From positions 434,964 to 498,963 of the forward strand of contig PHEY01000001.1 of the NCBI GenBank assembly GCA_002841335.1: a stretch of 64,000 nucleotides of DNA, read 5' to 3'. The notes below the pieces were generated by a model. That model worked only from the letters and a program-made list of their open reading frames with translations, was not told the DNA's origin and did no database searches. Positions within the stretch are counted from its first letter, which is position 1; each line of letters starts with the position of its first letter. Both the position numbers and the translations under genes were made by a program. Below, piece after piece: positions 48,695 through 58,305 of the stretch. This DNA comes from Actinobacteria bacterium HGW-Actinobacteria-2. GTDB taxonomy: Bacteria; Actinomycetota; Actinomycetes; Propionibacteriales; Propionibacteriaceae.

Positions 48695-50647
48695 TCAGTC
48701 CTCGATCACTTCGCCGGTGGCGAGATTCACCGCAGGCTCAGCGCTTTGTTCGGCGAGCACCGCCACGATGGCCTCGGCCGTCTTCGGACCGATCCCGGCG
48801 ACCTGCGCGATGTCGTCCACCGAGGCTTTGCGGAGCTTACGCAGCGACCCGAAATGGGCCAGGACGGCCTTGCGACGCAACTCCCCCAGCCCGGGCACCT
48901 GATCGAGCACCGACTCCACCATGGCTGCGCTGCGGCGTCCGCGGTGATGGGTGATGGCGAACCGATGGGCCTCGTCGCGGACGCGCTGCAGCAGGTACAG
49001 ACCCTCGCTGGACCGCGGCAGGATCAACGGGAACTCTTGATCGGGAAGCCAGACCTCCTCCAGGCGTTTGGCCAGGCCACACAGCGCCACATCGGTGAAC
49101 CCGACCTCGGCCATCGCGCGCGCGGCAGCCGCCACCTGCGGCGCACCGCCGTCGACCACCACCAAGGACGGGGCGTAGGCGAAGCGACGTGGCACTCCGG
49201 TCTCCGGATCGACCAGCATCGGCCCTTCGGTGTCAGTGGCGGCGGCCATGTTGGCTCGTTCGTCCACCAATCGACGGAAGCGTCGCGAAATCACTTCCTG
49301 CATGGCGGCTACATCGTTGGAGCCCTCGACGGTGCGGATCACGAAGCGGCGGTACTCGCTCTTGCGGGCCAATCCGTCCTCGAACACCACCATCGAGGCA
49401 ACGACCTCGCTGCCTTGGGTGTGGGAGATGTCGTAGCACTCGATCCGCAGGGGCACTTCGGGCAGCTCCAGCGCCTCCTGCAACTCCTCGAGCGCCTGGT
49501 TGCGCACCGACAGGTCTGAGGAGCGGCGCAGCTTGTGCACCGCCAGCACCTCCGCGGCGTTGCGGGCGGCAGTCTGCAGCAGGGCCGCCTTCTCGCCTCG
49601 TTGCGGCACCCGCAACTCCACCTTCGCACCACGCTGCTCGCTGAGCAGTTGGGCCAGCACCACACCAGACGCCGGCGGCGACGGCAGCAGCACCAAGGGC
49701 GGAATGTCGTGGTCGTTCTCGGCGTACAACTGGAACAAGAACTGCTCCAGCAGCTCGCCCTCATCACCGTCATCGCGTTCGGCGACCCAGCCGCGCTCAC
49801 CGCGAATCCGGCCGTCGCGGACATGGAAGACCTGCACCGCCACCTCCAGCGGATCGGTCGCCAACGCCACCACATCGGCATCAGTGCCATCGGCCAGCAC
49901 GATCGCGTTCTTCTCCGAGGCCTGGCGCAGCGCGGTCAGCCGGTCACGCAGGACGGCCGCCCGTTCGAACTCCTCGGCCTGCGCGGCCGCCAGCATCTCG
50001 GACTCGAGTTCGCGCACCAGATGGCGGGTACGCCCGGCCAGGAAGTCGCAAACGTCCTCGACCAACTCACGATGCTCGACGGCGTCGATGCGGCCCACGC
50101 ACGGGGCGGCGCACTTGCCGATGTAGCCCAGCAGACACGGACGCCCCACCGACCGCGCGTTGTTGAACACCCCCTGGGTGCACGACCGCATGGGGAACAC
50201 CCGCAGCAGCGAGTCGATGGTGTCGCGGATCGCCCAGGCCTGCGCGTACGGACCGAAGTAGCGGTTCTGTTTGCGCTTGGCGCCACGTCCGACGAGGATC
50301 CGCGGGAACTCATCGCTCCAGGTGACCGCCACCCACGGGTAGGACTTGTCATCGCGGTACTTGATGTTGAACCGCGGATCGAACTGCTTGATCCAGGTGT
50401 ACTCCAGCTGGAGTGCCTCCAGCTCGTTGCGCACCAGCGTCCATTCGACCTGGGCCGCGGTGCGCACCATCGTCTGGGTGCGAAAGTGCAGCGCGGCCGG
50501 GTCGGCGAAGTACGAGTTGAGTCGCTGACGCAGGTTGATCGCCTTGCCGACGTAGATCACCCGGTGATCGGCGTCGGAGAACCGGTAGACCCCCGGACCA
50601 GTCGGGATCGTCCCCGGCGCCGGACGGTAGCTGGCCGGATCAGCCAC
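48695..50647 (-). CDS. uvrC: Excinuclease ABC subunit C
   Basis: 650-residue dual-incision nuclease of nucleotide excision repair. GIY-YIG domain (about 14-95: [32 protein letters not shown]), UVR helix pair near 205-240 ([20 protein letters not shown]), RNase H-like C-terminal nuclease ([25 protein letters not shown]) and a tandem HhH end ([44 protein letters not shown]). The start is GTG 50647; an in-frame stop lies upstream. The promoter has a damage-type motif (50674-50696). Confidence 0.97.
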
Positions 50648-50673
50648 GATGCACCTGCGTCAACACACGCCAC

Positions 50674-50696
50674 AGCATAGGATCCCGCGCCGACAC
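50674..50696 (-). promoter_or_regulatory. uvrC promoter with RecA-NDp/PafBC-type motif
   Basis: Minus strand: GTGTCGGCG (50688-50696), 8 bp, TATGCT (50674-50679). Against the mycobacterial consensus TTGTCRGTG-N8-TANNNT the 9-mer matches 7 positions with exact spacing. Transcription would start about 20 nt before the GTG. Confidence 0.65.
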
Positions 50697-50941
50697 CCGT
50701 CTGGCCCGGGACGGCCGACCCGACCCGGGACGGTTCGTGACTGGCTCGACTCCGAACAACCCCATCGACTCCTCACCCTCTCGCGACCCCATCGCCGCGC
50801 CACCAACGCCGCGCCCCTGGATCGGCCGTACGGACGTTCGGGTTCGTTCGGCCGATGACGAAACCGGCACCTCAGCACTCTTCGCCACTGCGGGGTCCCG
50901 TTGCGGCTGCCGATTTAGGCTCGGGCCAGAACGGAGGAGTG
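50697..50941. other. Intergenic region between uvrC promoter and the Tat-Rieske gene
   Basis: No gene seen. It contains a direct repeat CCCGGGACGG (50705-50714 and 50724-50733). The inverted arms ATCGGCC/GGCCGAT enclose GTTCGGGTTCGTTCGG (50836-50851), an exact copy of the 16-mer at 19012-19027. A clear -10 for the Rieske gene was not identified. Confidence 0.5.
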
Positions 50942-51319
50942 ATGGCAGATGTGATGTCGCGCCGCAGCGCGTTGGTAGCCGTGGGTGGAACCGCCTTGGC
51001 GGTGTGCCTGGGATGCTCGGCCCAACCGGGGGCCAGTACTCCGGTGACCGTGCCGGTGACCGATATCCCGGTTGGCTCTGGCAAGGTCATCGGGAACTTC
51101 GTGGTCACTCAGCCACAGGCTGGTACGTTCGAAGCCTTCAATGGAGCTTGTACCCATCAGGGCTTCATCGTCCAACAGGTCACCACGTCGGCGATCGTGT
51201 GTGGTCGCCACGGCAGCACCTTCTCGCTCGCTGATGGCTCAGTGATCACCGGCCCTGCAGCCAAGCCGCTAGCGAAGGCCACGGTGACCCGCAGCGGCGA
51301 CACTCTCACGATCTCTTAG
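50942..51319 (+). CDS. Exported Rieske [2Fe-2S] protein with Tat-type signal
   Basis: 125 residues. Twin-arginine signal MSRRSALVAVGGTALAVCLGC followed by a low-complexity linker and a Rieske domain with ACTHQGF (CxH) and VCGRHGSTF (CxxH), SLADGSVITGPAAKPL. A Cys after the hydrophobic core (CLGC) might be lipidated, but the lipobox is imperfect. GGAGGAG precedes the ATG at 50942 with very short spacing. No cytochrome b or c partner is nearby, so it is a stand-alone extracytoplasmic electron carrier or part of a distant complex. Confidence 0.85.
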   Translation: MADVMSRRSALVAVGGTALAVCLGCSAQPGASTPVTVPVTDIPVGSGKVIGNFVVTQPQAGTFEAFNGACTHQGFIVQQVTTSAIVCGRHGSTFSLADGSVITGPAAKPLAKATVTRSGDTLTIS

Positions 51320-51353
51320 CCGGACGCTCTCTCAGGAGGACGGGACCCCCGCA

Positions 51354-51370
51354 GAGCGATCTCCTCGCTC
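51354..51370. terminator. Small hairpin between convergent Rieske and uvrA genes
   Basis: Six-bp stem GAGCGA/TCGCTC with a 5-nt loop in the 101-bp convergent gap. No T-run on either side; weak bidirectional terminator at best. Confidence 0.3.
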
Positions 51371-51420
51371 GGACGCTCCCCTCACGGGGCCGGTCTCCTG
51401 CTGGGACCCCACCTCGCCGT

Positions 51421-54300
51421 TCAGCTAGCGCTGAGCAGCGTGGGTTCCCCGAGCGGAGGATTGTCGGCCAGCACCTGTTTGAGGAACACCCCGGTGTAGG
51501 AGTCCGGGTTCTCGGCCACCTCCTCGGGTGTGCCCTCTGCGATCACCAGCCCGCCCCGCGAGCCACCCTCCGGCCCGAGGTCGATCACCCAGTCGGCTGC
51601 CTTGATCACGTCCAGGTTGTGCTCGATCACCACCACGGTGTTGCCCTTGTCGACCAGCGACTGCAGCACTTCCAGCAACTTGCGGATGTCTTCGAAGTGC
51701 AGTCCGGTGGTGGGCTCGTCGAGCACATAGAACGTCCGACCAGTGGATCGCTTCTGCAGTTCGGCGGCCAACTTCACCCGCTGCGCCTCGCCGCCGGACA
51801 GCGTGGTCGCCGGCTGCCCCAGCCGGACGTAGCCCAGGCCGACGTCGACCAGGGTGCGCAGGTGGCGGGCGATGGCCTCGATCGGCGCGAAGAAGTCCAG
51901 CGCCTCCTCGATCGGCATGTCCAAGACCTCCGAGATCGTCTTGCCCTTGTAATGCACTTCGAGGGTCTCGCGGTTGTACCGCGCGCCATGGCAGACCTCG
52001 CAGGGCACATAAACATCGGGCAGGAAGTTCATCTCGATCTTGATGGTGCCTTCGCCCGCGCAGTTCTCGCAGCGTCCGCCCTTGACGTTGAAGGAGAAGC
52101 GGCCCTGCTGGTAGCCCCGCACCTTCGCCTCGGGGGTCTCGGCGAACAGCTTGCGAATCCGGTCGAAGACGCCGGTGTAGGTGGCCGGGTTGGAGCGCGG
52201 GGTGCGTCCGATCGGCGACTGGTCGACGTGGATGCTCTTGTCGATGTGTTCGGCGCCGGTGAGCTGGCGGTGATGGCCCGGCACCACCTTGGAGCCGTAG
52301 ATCTTCTTGGCCAGGGCCGCGTACAGGATCGCGTTCACCAGGGACGACTTCCCCGACCCGGAGACCCCGGTGACCGCGACGAACTGCCCGAGCGGGAAGC
52401 TGACGGTCACATCGCGAAGGTTGTGCTCGCTGGCGCCATGAACGGTCACCGCCTTGCCCGTGGACGGACGTCGGGTAGTCGGCATCGGGATTCTCCGCCG
52501 CCCCGACAGATAGGCGCCGGTGATCGAGGTGGGATGTTCCAGCAGCTCGGCGACCGGTCCACTGACCACCACTTCACCGCCGTGCTCGCCCGCACCGGGT
52601 CCGATGTCGACGGCCCAGTCCGACGCGCGGATGGTGTCTTCATCGTGTTCGACCACGATCAGGGTGTTACCCAGGCGCTTCAGCCGCAGCAAGGTCTCGA
52701 TCAGGCGGTGGTTATCACGCTGATGGAGGCCGATCGAGGGCTCGTCCAGCACGTACAACACACCCACCAGGCCCGAGCCGATCTGCGTGGCCAACCGGAT
52801 GCGTTGGGCCTCCCCGCCGGACAAGCTGCCAGCGGTGCGCGAAAGGGTCAGGTAGTCCAGACCCACGTCCAGCAGGAAGCGGATCCGCTCGTTGATCTCT
52901 TTCACCAGACGCTCGGCGATCCGGGCGTCTCGCTCGCTGAGGACCAGTCCGCCCATGAACCCGGCCAGGTCACCGATGGGCAATGCCGCCACCTGGGCGA
53001 TGTTGCGCTCCCCCACAGTCACCGCCAGCGAGGACGGCTTCAGCCGATCGCCATGACAGGTCAGGCAGGGCACCTCGCGCATGTAGCCCGCGTAGCGCTC
53101 CCTGGCGTTGTCGGACTCAGCCTCGGCATGCCGGCGGCGAACGTACGGCAGCGCGCCTTCGTATTTGGCTCGGTAGGTGTGATCACGACCGTGCCGGGAG
53201 CGGCTGTGCACCGTCACCTGGCCGGGAACACCCATCAGCAACAACTGCTGGACGCGGTCGGGCAGCTTCTCCCAGGGGGTGTCCACTCTGAAGCCTTCTT
53301 GCTCGGCCAGCGCGACGAAGAGGTTCTGGAAGAACCCGGCGACATAGGGAGTGGTCCAGATCGCGATCGCGCCGTCGGCCAGGCTCTTGGTGGTGTCGGG
53401 CACCACGAGCTCGGCGTCCACCTCCATCCGGGTACCCAGGCCCGAACAGGCCGGGCAGGCTCCCCAGGGGGCGTTGAAGGAGAACTGCCGCGGTTCGAGC
53501 TCCTCGATGGCCACATCGTGGCCGTTGGGGCAGGCCAACCTCTCCGAAAACGAACGCTCCCGTTGCGGATCGTTGGCCGGGCGGTCCACGAAATCGATGG
53601 TCAGCACGCCTCCGGCCAGCCCGAGCGCGGTCTCGACCGAATCGGTGAGCCGCCGTTTGATCGACTCCTTGGCCGACAGCCGGTCGACGATCACCTCGAT
53701 GGAGTGCTTCTTCTGCTTATCCAGCGCCGGCGGATCGGTGAGCTGATGTAGTTCCCCATCGACCCGCACCCGGGCCAGACCCTGCCCGGCCAGCTGGCGG
53801 AACAGGTCCACATATTCGCCCTTACGACCACGCACGACCGGTGCCAACACCTGGAAGCGAGTGCCTTCGGGCAGCTCCATGAGCCGGTCGACGATCTGCT
53901 GCGGTGACTGCCGCGAAATCGACTCCCCGCATTCGATGCAGTGCGGCTGCCCGATCCGGGCGAACAGCAGGCGCAGATAGTCGTAGATCTCGGTGATCGT
54001 GCCGACCGTCGAGCGCGGATTGCGGCTGGTGGACTTCTGATCGATCGACACCGCAGGCGACAGCCCCTCGATGAAGTCGACGTCGGGCTTGTCCATTTGG
54101 CCAAGGAACTGACGCGCGTAGGCTGACAGGCTCTCCACGTAGCGGCGCTGGCCCTCGGCGAAGATCGTGTCGAACGCCAAGCTCGACTTGCCCGATCCCG
54201 ACAGGCCGGTGAACACGATCATCGAGTCCCTGGGCAGATCGAGGTTGACGTTGCGCAGGTTGTGTTCGCGGGCACCACGGACGATCAGGCGGTCATTCAC
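51421..54300 (-). CDS. uvrA: Excinuclease ABC subunit A
   Basis: 959-residue damage-recognition ATPase. Two ABC modules: [16 protein letters not shown] near residue 30 and [15 protein letters not shown] near 650, each with a LSGGEAQR signature, and zinc modules ([52 protein letters not shown]). The start is placed at GTG 54300, not ATG 54309: the -10 hexamer TAGCAT overlaps that ATG, GTG lies 7 nt past it, and [14 protein letters not shown] aligns with the MADRLIVKGAREHN start I recall for mycobacterial UvrA. Divergent from the MDMPI gene. Confidence 0.97.
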
Positions 54301-54307
54301 GTCGATC

Positions 54308-54330
54308 ATGCTAGATGCTCCCACGGACAA
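54308..54330 (-). promoter_or_regulatory. uvrA promoter with RecA-NDp/PafBC-type motif
   Basis: Minus strand: TTGTCCGTG (54322-54330), 8 bp, TAGCAT (54308-54313), 7 bp, GTG. The 9-mer matches TTGTCRGTG at 8 of 9 positions with exact N8 spacing. The predicted transcript is leaderless from GTG 54300. Confidence 0.8.
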
Positions 54331-54345
54331 AACTCCTGGGCACGA

Positions 54346-54375
54346 TTGGCCCCGGGCAGTACTTGGGCCTAGGTT
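54346..54375 (+). promoter_or_regulatory. Promoter of the MDMPI-family gene
   Basis: -35-like TTGGCC (54346-54351), 18-bp spacer, -10 TAGGTT (54370-54375), seven bases, then ATG 54383. No Shine-Dalgarno, so a leaderless transcript is likely. Confidence 0.6.
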
Positions 54376-54382
54376 TGCCTCC

Positions 54383-55093
54383 ATGAACCAGTACCCAGGG
54401 CCGGTTCCAGTGGAGGATGTGCATCGGTGGAAGACCGAAGCCACTCAACGCCTGCTGGGCTACACCATCGCCTTCACCGAAGACGAATGGCATCAGCCCG
54501 CCCGTCTGCCTGGCTGGTCACGGGCCCACCTGGCCACTCACCTGGCTCGACACGCCGACTACTTCGCGGCAATCCTGACCGCGGTGGTGGCCGGAGAACC
54601 CCAGCCCGAGCCCACAGACGAAGCCACCCAGCGAGCCGAACTCGAAGCCGGCGCTGATCGCAACGGCCTGGCCTTGCAGATCGATCTGGACGCCGCCTCC
54701 GGGGCATTGCAGAGTGCCATCGAGCTGGTCACCGATTGGAGCCTTCCGATCAGCCTCCACGGCTCACAGCTGCCGCTCTCGGTGCTGCCGCTGGCCCGGC
54801 TTCACGAGCTGAACCTGCACCTGCTGGATCTCGATTGCGGAGCCGCAGTCGAAGCGATCCCGGTCGGCGCACCGGAGTGGCTACTGCGCTGGGCCTTGTT
54901 CCGGCTGCAGAAGGCCCCGCTGCCCGCAATCACCCTGACCACCGACTCGCTGACCGCAAACATCGGCACCGGTACCGACCTTCCCCTCGCGGTCACCAGC
55001 AGTGACGCGATGGCCTGGGGTTGGCTGACCGGCCGTCTCGGACCGGAGGCGGTCGAAGGCGCCGACGGCCTGATCCTGCCGCTACTGGGCTGA
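54383..55093 (+). CDS. Maleylpyruvate isomerase (MDMPI)-family / DinB-like protein
   Basis: 236 residues. The N-terminal four-helix DinB-like domain carries the family motif [20 protein letters not shown], which includes metal-ligand His. The C-terminal part (from about 160) is an alpha/beta SCP-like domain. Named after mycothiol-dependent maleylpyruvate isomerase, but most members act on unknown thiol-linked reactions. The ATG at 54383 is 7 nt behind a -10. Divergent from uvrA; no catabolic genes are near. Confidence 0.85.
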
Positions 55094-55120
55094 CATCCGG
55101 CGGCAGCCAGATGTGCCCCC

Positions 55121-55156
55121 AGCTGGGGTTCAGTGCTGAGCTGGGGTTCAGTGCTG
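55121..55156. repeat. Perfect 18-bp tandem duplication at the terC 3' end
   Basis: AGCTGGGGTTCAGTGCTG occurs twice back to back (55121-55138, 55139-55156). The terC stop (55148-55150) lies in the second copy. It separates the convergent MDMPI and terC genes. Confidence 0.9.
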
Positions 55157-56116
55157 AGAGGCGCGTCGGTCGGCGGCCAAGCTCGCGATCGTGGTCACCG
55201 CCAATGTGCCGATGATCACCAGCAACGAGGCCCAAATCGGGATCTCGGCATCAAAGCCGAGGCTGGTGTCCCAGCCGTACTCGTGCATCGCGTGCAGCAG
55301 GAGTTTCACACCGATGAACGCCAGGATCACCGACAACCCCACCGACAGGTAGATCAGACGGTCCAAGAGGCCGCCGATCAGGAAGTACAACTGGCGCAGC
55401 CCCATCAACGCGAACACGTTGGCGCTGAACACCAGGTACGGCTCCTGGGTCAGTCCGTAGATCGCAGGGATCGAGTCGAGGGCGAACAGCAGGTCGGTGG
55501 TGCCCAAGGCGACGATGACGAACAGCATCGGGGTGATCAACCTCTTGCCGTCCAACCGCACCACCAGCTTGGTGCCGTGGAACTCGTCGGTGGCGCGGAA
55601 CGTCCGGCGCACCCAACGCATCACCGCATTCTCGGTCATATCGTCGGAGTCGTCGGGTTTTCGGTACTCGAGGTAGAGCTTGATCGCGGTGTAGATCAGG
55701 AAGGCGCCGAAGAGGAAGAACACCCAGACGAAAGCCTCGATCGCGGCGGCGCCGACCCCGATGAAGACGCCTCGCAGGACCAGCGCCAGGATGATGCCGA
55801 CCATCAGCGCGTACTGCTGCAACTGCCGCGGCACCCGCAGGTTCGCCATGATCAGCACGAAGATGAACAGGTTGTCCACGCTCAGGCTGTACTCGGTGAG
55901 CCAGCCGGCGAAGAACTCCCCCGCGTAGCGCGGACCCGAGGTGACCCACACACCGACCCCGAAGACCACTGCCAGTGCGGAAAAGACTCCGATCGCCAGG
56001 CCGGCTTCCTTCATCGACGGCTCGTGCGGCCGGCGGCCGATGTAGACCAGATCAATCCCCAGGACCACCACCATGGCGACGATCGTGATCACCCACGCCT
56101 CGGTGGTTACATGCAT
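55148..56116 (-). CDS. TerC-family integral membrane protein
   Basis: 322 residues with about eight to nine membrane helices. Conserved acidic membrane residues appear in EYSLSVDNLFIFVLIM and GTTDLLFALDSIPAIYGLTQEPYLVFSANVFALMGLRQLYFLI, the TerC signature. Relatives export metal ions (manganese) or take part in tellurite resistance and exoenzyme metalation. No yybP-ykoY-like leader is visible in the ~80 bp between it and uvrB. Start ATG 56116. Confidence 0.92.
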   Translation of the reverse strand: MHVTTEAWVITIVAMVVVLGIDLVYIGRRPHEPSMKEAGLAIGVFSALAVVFGVGVWVTSGPRYAGEFFAGWLTEYSLSVDNLFIFVLIMANLRVPRQLQQYALMVGIILALVLRGVFIGVGAAAIEAFVWVFFLFGAFLIYTAIKLYLEYRKPDDSDDMTENAVMRWVRRTFRATDEFHGTKLVVRLDGKRLITPMLFVIVALGTTDLLFALDSIPAIYGLTQEPYLVFSANVFALMGLRQLYFLIGGLLDRLIYLSVGLSVILAFIGVKLLLHAMHEYGWDTSLGFDAEIPIWASLLVIIGTLAVTTIASLAADRRASQH

Positions 56117-56197
56117 CTACTGACCTTTCGGATGCCTGTGCCAGGGTGGCTCACGGCTCCGGACATTCTCGCAGGGCTGGTCCGGGGAGCCAATTCT

Positions 56198-58276
56198 TCA
56201 CGACGTAGCGGCGATGATCTGCCGCAGCGTCTTCTTCAAGTCGGCGACTTCGTCCCGCAGCCGGGCGGCCAACTCGAACTGGAGATCCGCTGCCGCGGTG
56301 TGCATCTGGTCGGTGAGTTCGCCGATCAGCGCGGTCAACTCGGCCGCAGGCAACTCCCCCAGGTCACGTCGACGCACGGTCGAGGCCGGCACCGGTGACG
56401 TAGGCCGACGACTCCCCCGGTTCACCAGTTCATCAGTGTCGGCATCCTCACGAGCCAACAGGTCGGTGAGGTCGGCGATCTTCTTCCGCAACGGCTGCGG
56501 ATCGAGGCCACGCTCGGTGTTGTACGCGACCTGCTTCTCTCGGCGACGGTTGGTCTCATCGATCGCGGCCGCCATCGAGGGCGTGATCTTGTCGGCGTAC
56601 ATGTGCACTTGCCCGGCGACATTTCGCGCAGCTCGACCGATGGTCTGAATCAGCGATCGCTCCGAGCGCAGGAAGCCCTCCTTGTCGGCGTCCAGGATCG
56701 AGACCAGGCTCACCTCGGGCAGGTCAAGACCCTCACGCAACAGGTTGATGCCCACCAGCACGTCGAACACCCCGAGGCGCAGTTCGCGTAGCAGTTCGAT
56801 CCGGCGCAGGGTGTCGACCTCGGAATGCAGATATCGGGTCCGCACTCCGTTCTCCATCAGGTAGTCAGTGAGGTCTTCGGCCATCTTCTTGGTGAGCGTG
56901 GTGACCAACACTCGCTCATTGATCGCAGCGCGGGCGGTGATCTCGGCCATCAGGTCGTCAATCTGTCCCTTGGTCGGCTTCAGCACGATCTCCGGATCGA
57001 CCAGCCCGGTGGGCCGGATCAGCTGTTCGACCACACCGTCGGCCTTGGCCATCTCGTACGGCCCCGGCGTCGCCGATAGGTAGACGGTCTGGCCGATCCG
57101 GTCGACGAACTCCTCCCAGCGCAACGGACGGTTGTCCATGGCCGACGGCAGCCGGAAACCATGCTCGACCAGGGTTCGCTTGCGGGACATGTCGCCCTCG
57201 TACATTCCCCCGATCTGCGGCACGGTCACGTGGGACTCGTCGATCACCAGCAGGAAGTCCTCGCTGAAGTAGTCCAGCAGACAGTTGGGAGCGGTGCCGG
57301 GGCCACGTCCGTCGATGTGGCGGGAGTAGTTCTCAATCCCCGAACAGGTACCGATCTGGCGCATCATCTCGATGTCGTAGCCGGTGCGCATGCGGAGTCG
57401 TTGGGCCTCCAGCAGCTTGCCCTCGGCCTCCAGGTCGGCCAGCCGCAGAGCCAGTTCCGCCTCGATGTCGGCGATCGCCCGCTCCATACGTTCCGGGCCG
57501 GCCACGTAGTGCGACGCCGGAAACACGTAGATCTCGGTGTCGTTGCTGAGCACCGCCCCGCTGACCGGATGCAGCGTCGACAACGCCTCGATCTCGTCGC
57601 CGAAGAACTCCACCCGCACGGCATGCTCCTCGTACATCGGGAAGACCTCGACGGTGTCGCCGCGAACCCGGAAGGTGCCGCGAGTTCCGGCCAGATCATT
57701 GCGGACGTACTGGATGTCGACCAGCCGCCGCAGCAGCGTGTCCCGGTCGGTCTCCTCCCCCACCCGAAGTCGAACCATCCGGTCCACATACTCCTGGGGC
57801 GTGCCCAGACCGTAGATGGCCGACACCGTGGCCACGACGATCACATCACGTCGGGTCAGCAATGAGTTGGTCGCCGAGTGACGCAGCCGTTCCACCTCCT
57901 CGTTCAGCGAGGAGTCCTTCTCGATGTAGGTGTCGGTCTGAGGCACGTACGCCTCGGGTTGGTAATAGTCGTAGTACGACACGAAGTACTCGACCGCATT
58001 GTCGGGGAAGAACTGCCGCAACTCGTTGGCGAACTGCGCCGCCAGGGTCTTGTTGGGTTGCATCACCAGCATCGGCCGCTGCACTCGCTCGGCCAGCCAG
58101 GCCACCGTGGCCGTCTTGCCCGTGCCGGTTGCGCCCAGCAGGACCACATTCTGTTCACCGGCGTTGATCCGTCGCTCGAGCTCCGCGATCGCCGCCGGCT
58201 GATCGCCGGCCGGCTCGAAATCAGCCACCATTGAGAACGGGGCTACTCGTCTTTGCACATCACTGGTCGGTCGCAC
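56198..58276 (-). CDS. uvrB: Excinuclease ABC subunit B
   Basis: 692-residue DNA helicase-like subunit that verifies damage and recruits UvrC. Walker [13 protein letters not shown], beta-hairpin region [26 protein letters not shown], helicase motifs [48 protein letters not shown] and QTIGRAARN, and the C-terminal UVR motif ([20 protein letters not shown]). The start is GTG 58276, 6 nt behind TAAGCT and leaderless. Confidence 0.98.
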
Positions 58277-58282
58277 AACAAG

Positions 58283-58305
58283 AGCTTAGGTCGCGGCGCT
58301 GACAT
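58283..58305 (-). promoter_or_regulatory. uvrB promoter with RecA-NDp/PafBC-type motif
   Basis: Minus strand: ATGTCAGCG (58297-58305), 8 bp, TAAGCT (58283-58288), 6 bp, GTG 58276. The 9-mer matches 7 of 9 positions of TTGTCRGTG at the exact N8 spacing. Confidence 0.7.

Follow-up and report, generated by a model that had tools for sequence, protein, structure and literature searches.

PafBC-type promoters predicted before uvrA, uvrB and uvrC in a genome of the Propionibacteriaceae

The closest described counterpart of the promoters analysed here belongs to the PafBC regulon of mycobacteria (Gamulin 2004 and Mueller 2018, as cited in PMC8223512 and PMC5656591), a second DNA damage response whose RecA-independent promoter motif (RecA-NDp) has been printed with the consensus tTGTCRgtg-8 nt-TannnT (PMC5656591). 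The same source describes two promoters, P1 and P2, for mycobacterial recA. The mechanism of activation by PafBC is presented as established in M. smegmatis, where the complex has the helix-turn-helix (HTH) of PafB on the -26 motif (PMC11804915), and uvrABC has already been reported as part of the PafBC regulon of that species (PMC8223512). According to the latter review the RecA-NDp motif extends to other Actinobacteria, with credit given to Gamulin 2004. Here we describe a stretch of 64,000 nucleotides (the window) from Actinobacteria bacterium HGW-Actinobacteria-2, a member of the Propionibacteriaceae, in which uvrA, uvrB and uvrC are each preceded by an element of this type. As judged from sequence, each of the three genes is very probably transcribed from its own PafBC-dependent promoter, a reading to which we assign a probability of roughly 0.9.

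All three sites are located on the minus strand, directly before the respective gene, and were found exactly as quoted in a preliminary description of this DNA. The uvrA promoter (54308..54330) consists of the -26 9-mer TTGTCCGTG (54322-54330), an 8-nt gap and the -10 hexamer TAGCAT (54308-54313). The uvrB promoter (58283..58305) combines ATGTCAGCG (58297-58305) with TAAGCT (58283-58288), and the uvrC promoter (50674..50696) combines GTGTCGGCG (50688-50696) with TATGCT (50674-50679). TGTC is present in all three sites and is followed by R in two of them (uvrA has C), and the 8-nt gap to the TANNNT element is exact in every case. The agreement with the printed consensus, given earlier as 8/9, 7/9 and 7/9, was correct (PMC5656591). 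A relaxed pattern, TGTCNGYG-N8-TANNNT, in which position 7 is restricted to T or C, matched three times in the window, at exactly these promoters, with 0.09 matches expected, and none of 100 shuffled versions of the window contained three matches. The loci had also been called unlinked, which does not apply: all three share a strand and a region of 7.6 kb, though each has its own site. The promoters precede the coding sequences of uvrA (51421..54309, minus strand; Pfam UvrA_inter and UvrA_DNA-bind), uvrB (56198..58276, minus strand; UvrB and UvrB_inter) and uvrC (48695..50647, minus strand; UvrC_RNaseH_dom, GIY-YIG and HHH).

The genome of the window (G000; 2.92 Mb, 14 contigs, 98.6% complete) also encodes the putative regulator. 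At E <= 0.001 the WYL domain was matched by just two genes, the adjacent pafB and pafC (C2:19350-20482). Their proteins matched entry 7p5x, which we take to be the M. smegmatis PafBC complex, at 2e-53 (PafB) and 3e-36 (PafC). The second WYL protein further matched the Pfam family HTH_PafC at 1.4e-39. An FKBP gene is found upstream of the pair, and tatC and a lipid kinase gene are found downstream. The relaxed pattern occurred 16 times in G000, compared with a single occurrence of the reversed pattern, which served as control. Eight of the 16 sites precede genes with a clear role in repair, replication or chromosome maintenance, namely uvrA, uvrB, uvrC, recA, recQ, dnaB, ftsK and a gene for a DEDD exonuclease with a GIY-YIG domain; as genome background for repair genes we used a share of 3-5%, which is an assumed value and not a measurement. 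One further site lies before a gene for an HNH protein with a weak match (22.1 bits at a Pfam cut-off of 24.8). The preliminary description had predicted PafBC-type promoters for the three uvr genes and had named the presence of pafBC and a genome-wide enrichment of sites before DNA-repair genes as ways to check this; both were found and support the prediction.

Conservation was assessed in a set of 41 genomes (G000 and 40 others; 25 same-genus genomes and 16 order relatives), from which the best 30 loci per gene, those of G000 included, were compared. The order is most likely Propionibacteriales, as the two f2 genomes compared with uvrA DNA of Kribbella antiqua, a genus of that order, matched it at 87% and 90%. 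A truncated uvrA (L210, in G007) was excluded, leaving 29 uvrA, 30 uvrB and 30 uvrC loci, and thirteen spacers of 6-18 nt between TGTC and TANNNT were scanned within 150 or 300 nt upstream. TGTC-N12-TANNNT was present within 300 nt of 27 of the 29 uvrA, 29 of the 30 uvrB and 18 of the 30 uvrC genes. Within 150 nt the respective numbers were 23, 29 and 18, and the other twelve spacers (6-11 and 13-18 nt) amounted to 3 cases in total. Each of the 29 uvrB loci with the element has its UvrB match starting 6-7 nt past the hexamer. The 8-nt gap and the flanking sequence diverge among relatives while the spacing is conserved at uvrA and uvrB. Congeners have T, C or A at position 7 of the -26 element, and the robust core is therefore TGTCRG; this agrees with the motif given for M. 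tuberculosis, TGTCGG, TGTCAG or TGTCAC-N10-TA-N3-T (PMC8151990). An earlier suggestion that the lineage had shifted from GTG to GCG at the end of the 9-mer could not be upheld. Position 7 was T in 11 and C in 5 of the 16 sites of G000 (the pattern allowed only these two), and the three bases seen among relatives also contradict such a shift.

The element is also found well beyond these relatives. Among named actinobacterial uvrA loci (80, of which four with less than 150 nt of upstream DNA were dropped), the 12-nt spacer occurred in the loose form in 44 of 76 and in the strict form in 18, compared with two cases in total for the other twelve spacers. In a phylum sample, 17 genomes of the same class contained 505 sites of TGTCRGTG-N8-TANNNT versus 14 controls, with little excess in two of them (3 versus 1 in G153 and 4 versus 1 in G337), and 179 genomes of other classes contained 196 sites versus 80 controls. 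In G036 and G030 some 22-mers with the pattern (in G036, for example, TGTCGGTGGCAGCCGGTAGAGT) are present in several copies per genome, which suggests a repeated gene family or an element that carries the promoter. Named Streptomyces uvrA loci, from species other than S. venezuelae, showed TGTC-N12-TANNNT in 8 of 13 cases and the strict form in 5 (L034, L036, L040, L041 and L043); a fourteenth locus had too little upstream DNA. For S. venezuelae itself, an initial search is described as having suggested that the motif is not conserved (PMC9380542). The Streptomyces uvrA sites bear on the question of motif conservation that was left open for this genus.

Several observations weigh against PafBC control of all three genes. 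In the uvrA site the R of the consensus is replaced by C, and the uvrB and uvrC sites have C for T as well as another first base. Seven of the 16 sites in G000 precede genes without a clear repair role (two ABC transporters, one MFS transporter, one TIR-domain protein and three without Pfam match, with the ABC protein L012 and the MFS protein L014 identified from translation alone), and some chance matches are to be expected. The uvrC site is weakly conserved, with 12 of 30 loci lacking TGTC-N12-TANNNT. The excess of the strict pattern, which is clear in G000 and the order relatives, is uneven in the genus, with 3 sites versus 6 controls in G003 (74% complete), 3 versus 2 in G021, 1 versus 0 in G011 and 9 versus 5 in G019. 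Finally, G011 encodes both PafB and PafC and yet has no TGTC-N12-TANNNT at uvrA or uvrB; -10-like hexamers persist there 6 nt before the likely starts (L151, L227, L133). A loss of pafBC as the cause of the few canonical sites in G011 and G021 was rejected, since both genomes carry the two genes.

We nevertheless consider PafBC control of uvrABC to be well supported by the sites together with their constant spacing and their conservation, by the pafBC genes and by the genome-wide target set. If the mechanism described for M. smegmatis is carried over by homology, the heterodimer of PafB and PafC would bind single-stranded DNA through its WYL domains after damage. PafB would then recognise TGTCRG(t/c/a)G as the -26 element and PafC would make contact with the housekeeping sigma factor at its domain 4; the TANNNT -10 element would be opened by RNA polymerase. 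Induction by damage, binding of PafBC and leaderless transcripts are all predicted here.

Of the alternatives, a joint control of uvrABC by PafBC and LexA survives best, as mycobacterial uvrA and uvrC are both reported to be controlled in this way (PMC8223512). In G000 both elements are indeed present before recA, where an exact SOS box begins 77 nt upstream of the PafBC-type site, and this gene would respond to the LexA box as well as to PafBC. The box fits GAACNNNNGTTC, which we take to be the SOS operator. A box with one mismatch, GTACGGACGTTC, was further found at 50828, with its start 132 nt before the uvrC site. One-mismatch matches are dense in this region, however, with 8 in the 13 kb around the uvr promoters, and the box near uvrC is therefore no more than expected by chance; on the upstream side of the uvrA site, about 800 nt separate the site from the closest such box. 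An exact SOS box (GAACNNNNGTTY) was not found near the uvrA, uvrB or uvrC promoters. Because of this uvrABC should answer mainly to PafBC, and we regard dual control as unlikely for these genes, although uvrC may be under weak LexA control.

It is less probable still that the sites are used by a regulator other than PafBC, such as ClgR or another WYL activator. ClgR has been reported to recognise the P1 promoter of M. smegmatis (cited in PMC5656591), which also counts against PafBC control here. On the other hand, it is the PafB HTH that was placed on the -26 motif in M. smegmatis (PMC11804915), the adjacent pafB and pafC genes account for all WYL matches in G000 at the threshold given above, and in one congener, G021, a change of the motif accompanies a change in the recognition helix of PafB. 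The idea that the TANNNT hexamers act simply as -10 elements of constitutive, leaderless transcription, with a TGTC half that resembles the motif by chance, is the least credible of all: leaderless-like starts are common (9 of the 65 TANNNT hexamers on both strands of the window have a start 6-7 nt downstream) and uvrC of several congeners retains TATGCT with TGTC lost, but the 16 sites versus one control in G000, half of them before repair or replication genes, and the conservation of the 12-nt spacer alone at uvrA and uvrB while gap and flanks diverge argue against it.

The position of the predicted PafBC-dependent promoters also has consequences for translation starts. When a leaderless-type start was taken as an open reading frame (ORF) of at least 60 amino acids beginning 6-7 nt after the hexamer, 10 of the 16 sites in G000 had such a start, compared with 3.2% of all positions and with the 9 of 65 TANNNT hexamers in the window. 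The site before the gene of the TIR-domain protein (L010, C7:97676-97697) is likewise leaderless-like. The longest uvrA ORF begins at 54444, upstream of the promoter site, which consequently lies inside this ORF; the true start is therefore more likely the ATG at 54309, which overlaps the hexamer, or the GTG at 54300, 7 nt past it. With this GTG, and with the GTG start of uvrB 6 nt past its hexamer, both genes would begin where transcription is expected to begin, which suggests that their mRNAs are leaderless.

The GTG start of uvrC lies 26 nt past the hexamer. The leader contains a possible leaderless mini-ORF (50640..50666, minus strand) that begins with a GTG 7 nt past the hexamer (it was counted from this codon and not from the GTG at +5) and whose TGA overlaps the uvrC start. 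Similar arrangements were seen in same-genus uvrC genes with a leader (L169-L183), where 12 of 13, that of the window included, have a start codon 5-7 nt past the -10 element that opens a mini-ORF, in all 12 with a TGA overlapping the uvrC start. The distance from start to start is 19 nt in ten of these, 16 nt in one and 10 nt in one, always in the same frame. In G009 the leader has ACG in place of the mini-ORF start codon, and directly leaderless uvrC genes were found in eight order relatives as well as in G016 and G018. This might hint at translational coupling between mini-ORF and uvrC, for which the evidence is weak. Between the uvr loci the window encodes other ORFs, including a gene of the TerC family, which shares their strand, and an MDMPI_N gene, which is encoded on the opposite one.

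In the congener G021 the canonical pattern was not in excess (3 sites versus 2 controls) despite the presence of PafB and PafC. The uvrA and uvrB genes of G021 instead carry the -26 element TGTCCTGG with the same 8-nt gap. A search of the genome with TGTCCTGG, a spelling taken from the uvrA and uvrB sites themselves, gave 5 sites and no controls. These sites (L229, L231-L234) lie before uvrA, uvrB, recC (Exonuc_V_gamma), recQ and a DUF6504 gene, the last followed by a gene with a PHP/DNA polymerase III alpha product, interpreted by us as dnaE2. A wider spread of TGTCCTGG was rejected, as each of 144 other genomes had at most 2 sites, with 31 in total versus 31 controls. A PafB match was obtained in 143 genomes, and in 70 of these (30 loci and 40 from further down the match list) the recognition helix was compared; it read FERDK in 69, with FGRDK only in G021. 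FERDK was also found in ten further PafB proteins, that of G000 included, and in two solved PafB proteins. In A. aurescens PafB, residues F42, R44, F46 and R48 are described as lying in the recognition helix, and replacement of the two equivalent arginines of M. smegmatis PafB by alanine is reported to give the phenotype of a pafBC deletion (PMC6789036). The glutamate that is changed in G021 sits between the positions of F46 and R48, adjacent to one of these two arginines.

We tentatively propose, at somewhat less than even odds, that the PafBC regulon of G021 was respelled from TGTCRGTG to TGTCCTGG, with the Glu-to-Gly change in PafB (FERDK to FGRDK) as specificity switch, and that G000 represents the unswitched reference of a lineage in which PafBC was retained when the Pup ligase had been lost. 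That the residue and the spelling are linked is plausible, but a single lineage provides the evidence. It is weakened by the many other places at which PafB of G021 differs from its relatives, the nearest of which is 66% identical. A further argument against a complete switch is ftsK of G021, which has a leaderless-like -10 element and no TGTCCTGG; recA of this genome lies outside the 60 kb looked at. The uvrC gene of G021 is located directly behind uvrA, and this order may explain the missing uvrC site. If the switch is true, G021 would represent a small natural experiment on how PafB recognises its element.

PafC was present in all 41 genomes, and the Pup ligase/Dop family (PF03136) in 22 of them, namely all 16 order relatives and 6 of the 25 same-genus genomes. 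PF03136 was not found in G000 or 18 other same-genus genomes, in a search that did not cover Pup, Mpa and the 20S subunits; genomes without a match include 11 of the 15 same-genus genomes that are at least 90% complete. The proximity of pafA and dop to pafBC, as in the described Pup-proteasome locus, is accordingly not seen in G000. A review states that this locus is present in all Actinobacteria and that in M. smegmatis RecA is brought back to the level it had before stress by the Pup-proteasome system (PMC8223512). The retention of pafBC in genomes where the Pup ligase was not found contrasts with the first statement and, in view of the second, this lineage may reset RecA differently from M. 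smegmatis. In the open-licence literature we found no paper on PafBC with Propionibacterium, and titles and opening lines of abstracts there returned nothing on PafBC retention without Pup ligase or on a respelled motif.

Compared with known systems, the predicted regulon resembles the LexA/RecA SOS regulon of Actinobacteria in being a DNA damage regulon that includes recA, but its element differs from the SOS operator, of which no exact copy lies near uvrABC. It also differs from the PafBC regulon of Mycobacterium in this lack of an exact LexA box near uvrABC, in the loose position 7 among congeners, in the 10 of 16 targets that are leaderless-like and in a genome where the Pup ligase/Dop family was not found. 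With the mycobacterial RecA-NDp/P1 promoter and PafBC regulon it shares the TGTCR core, the 8-nt gap, the TANNNT element and the same regulator genes, as well as uvrABC and recA as targets, with a LexA box next to the PafBC site in the case of recA. The combined evidence from cis-element, regulator and target set would extend the second DNA damage response of mycobacteria to another actinobacterial order.

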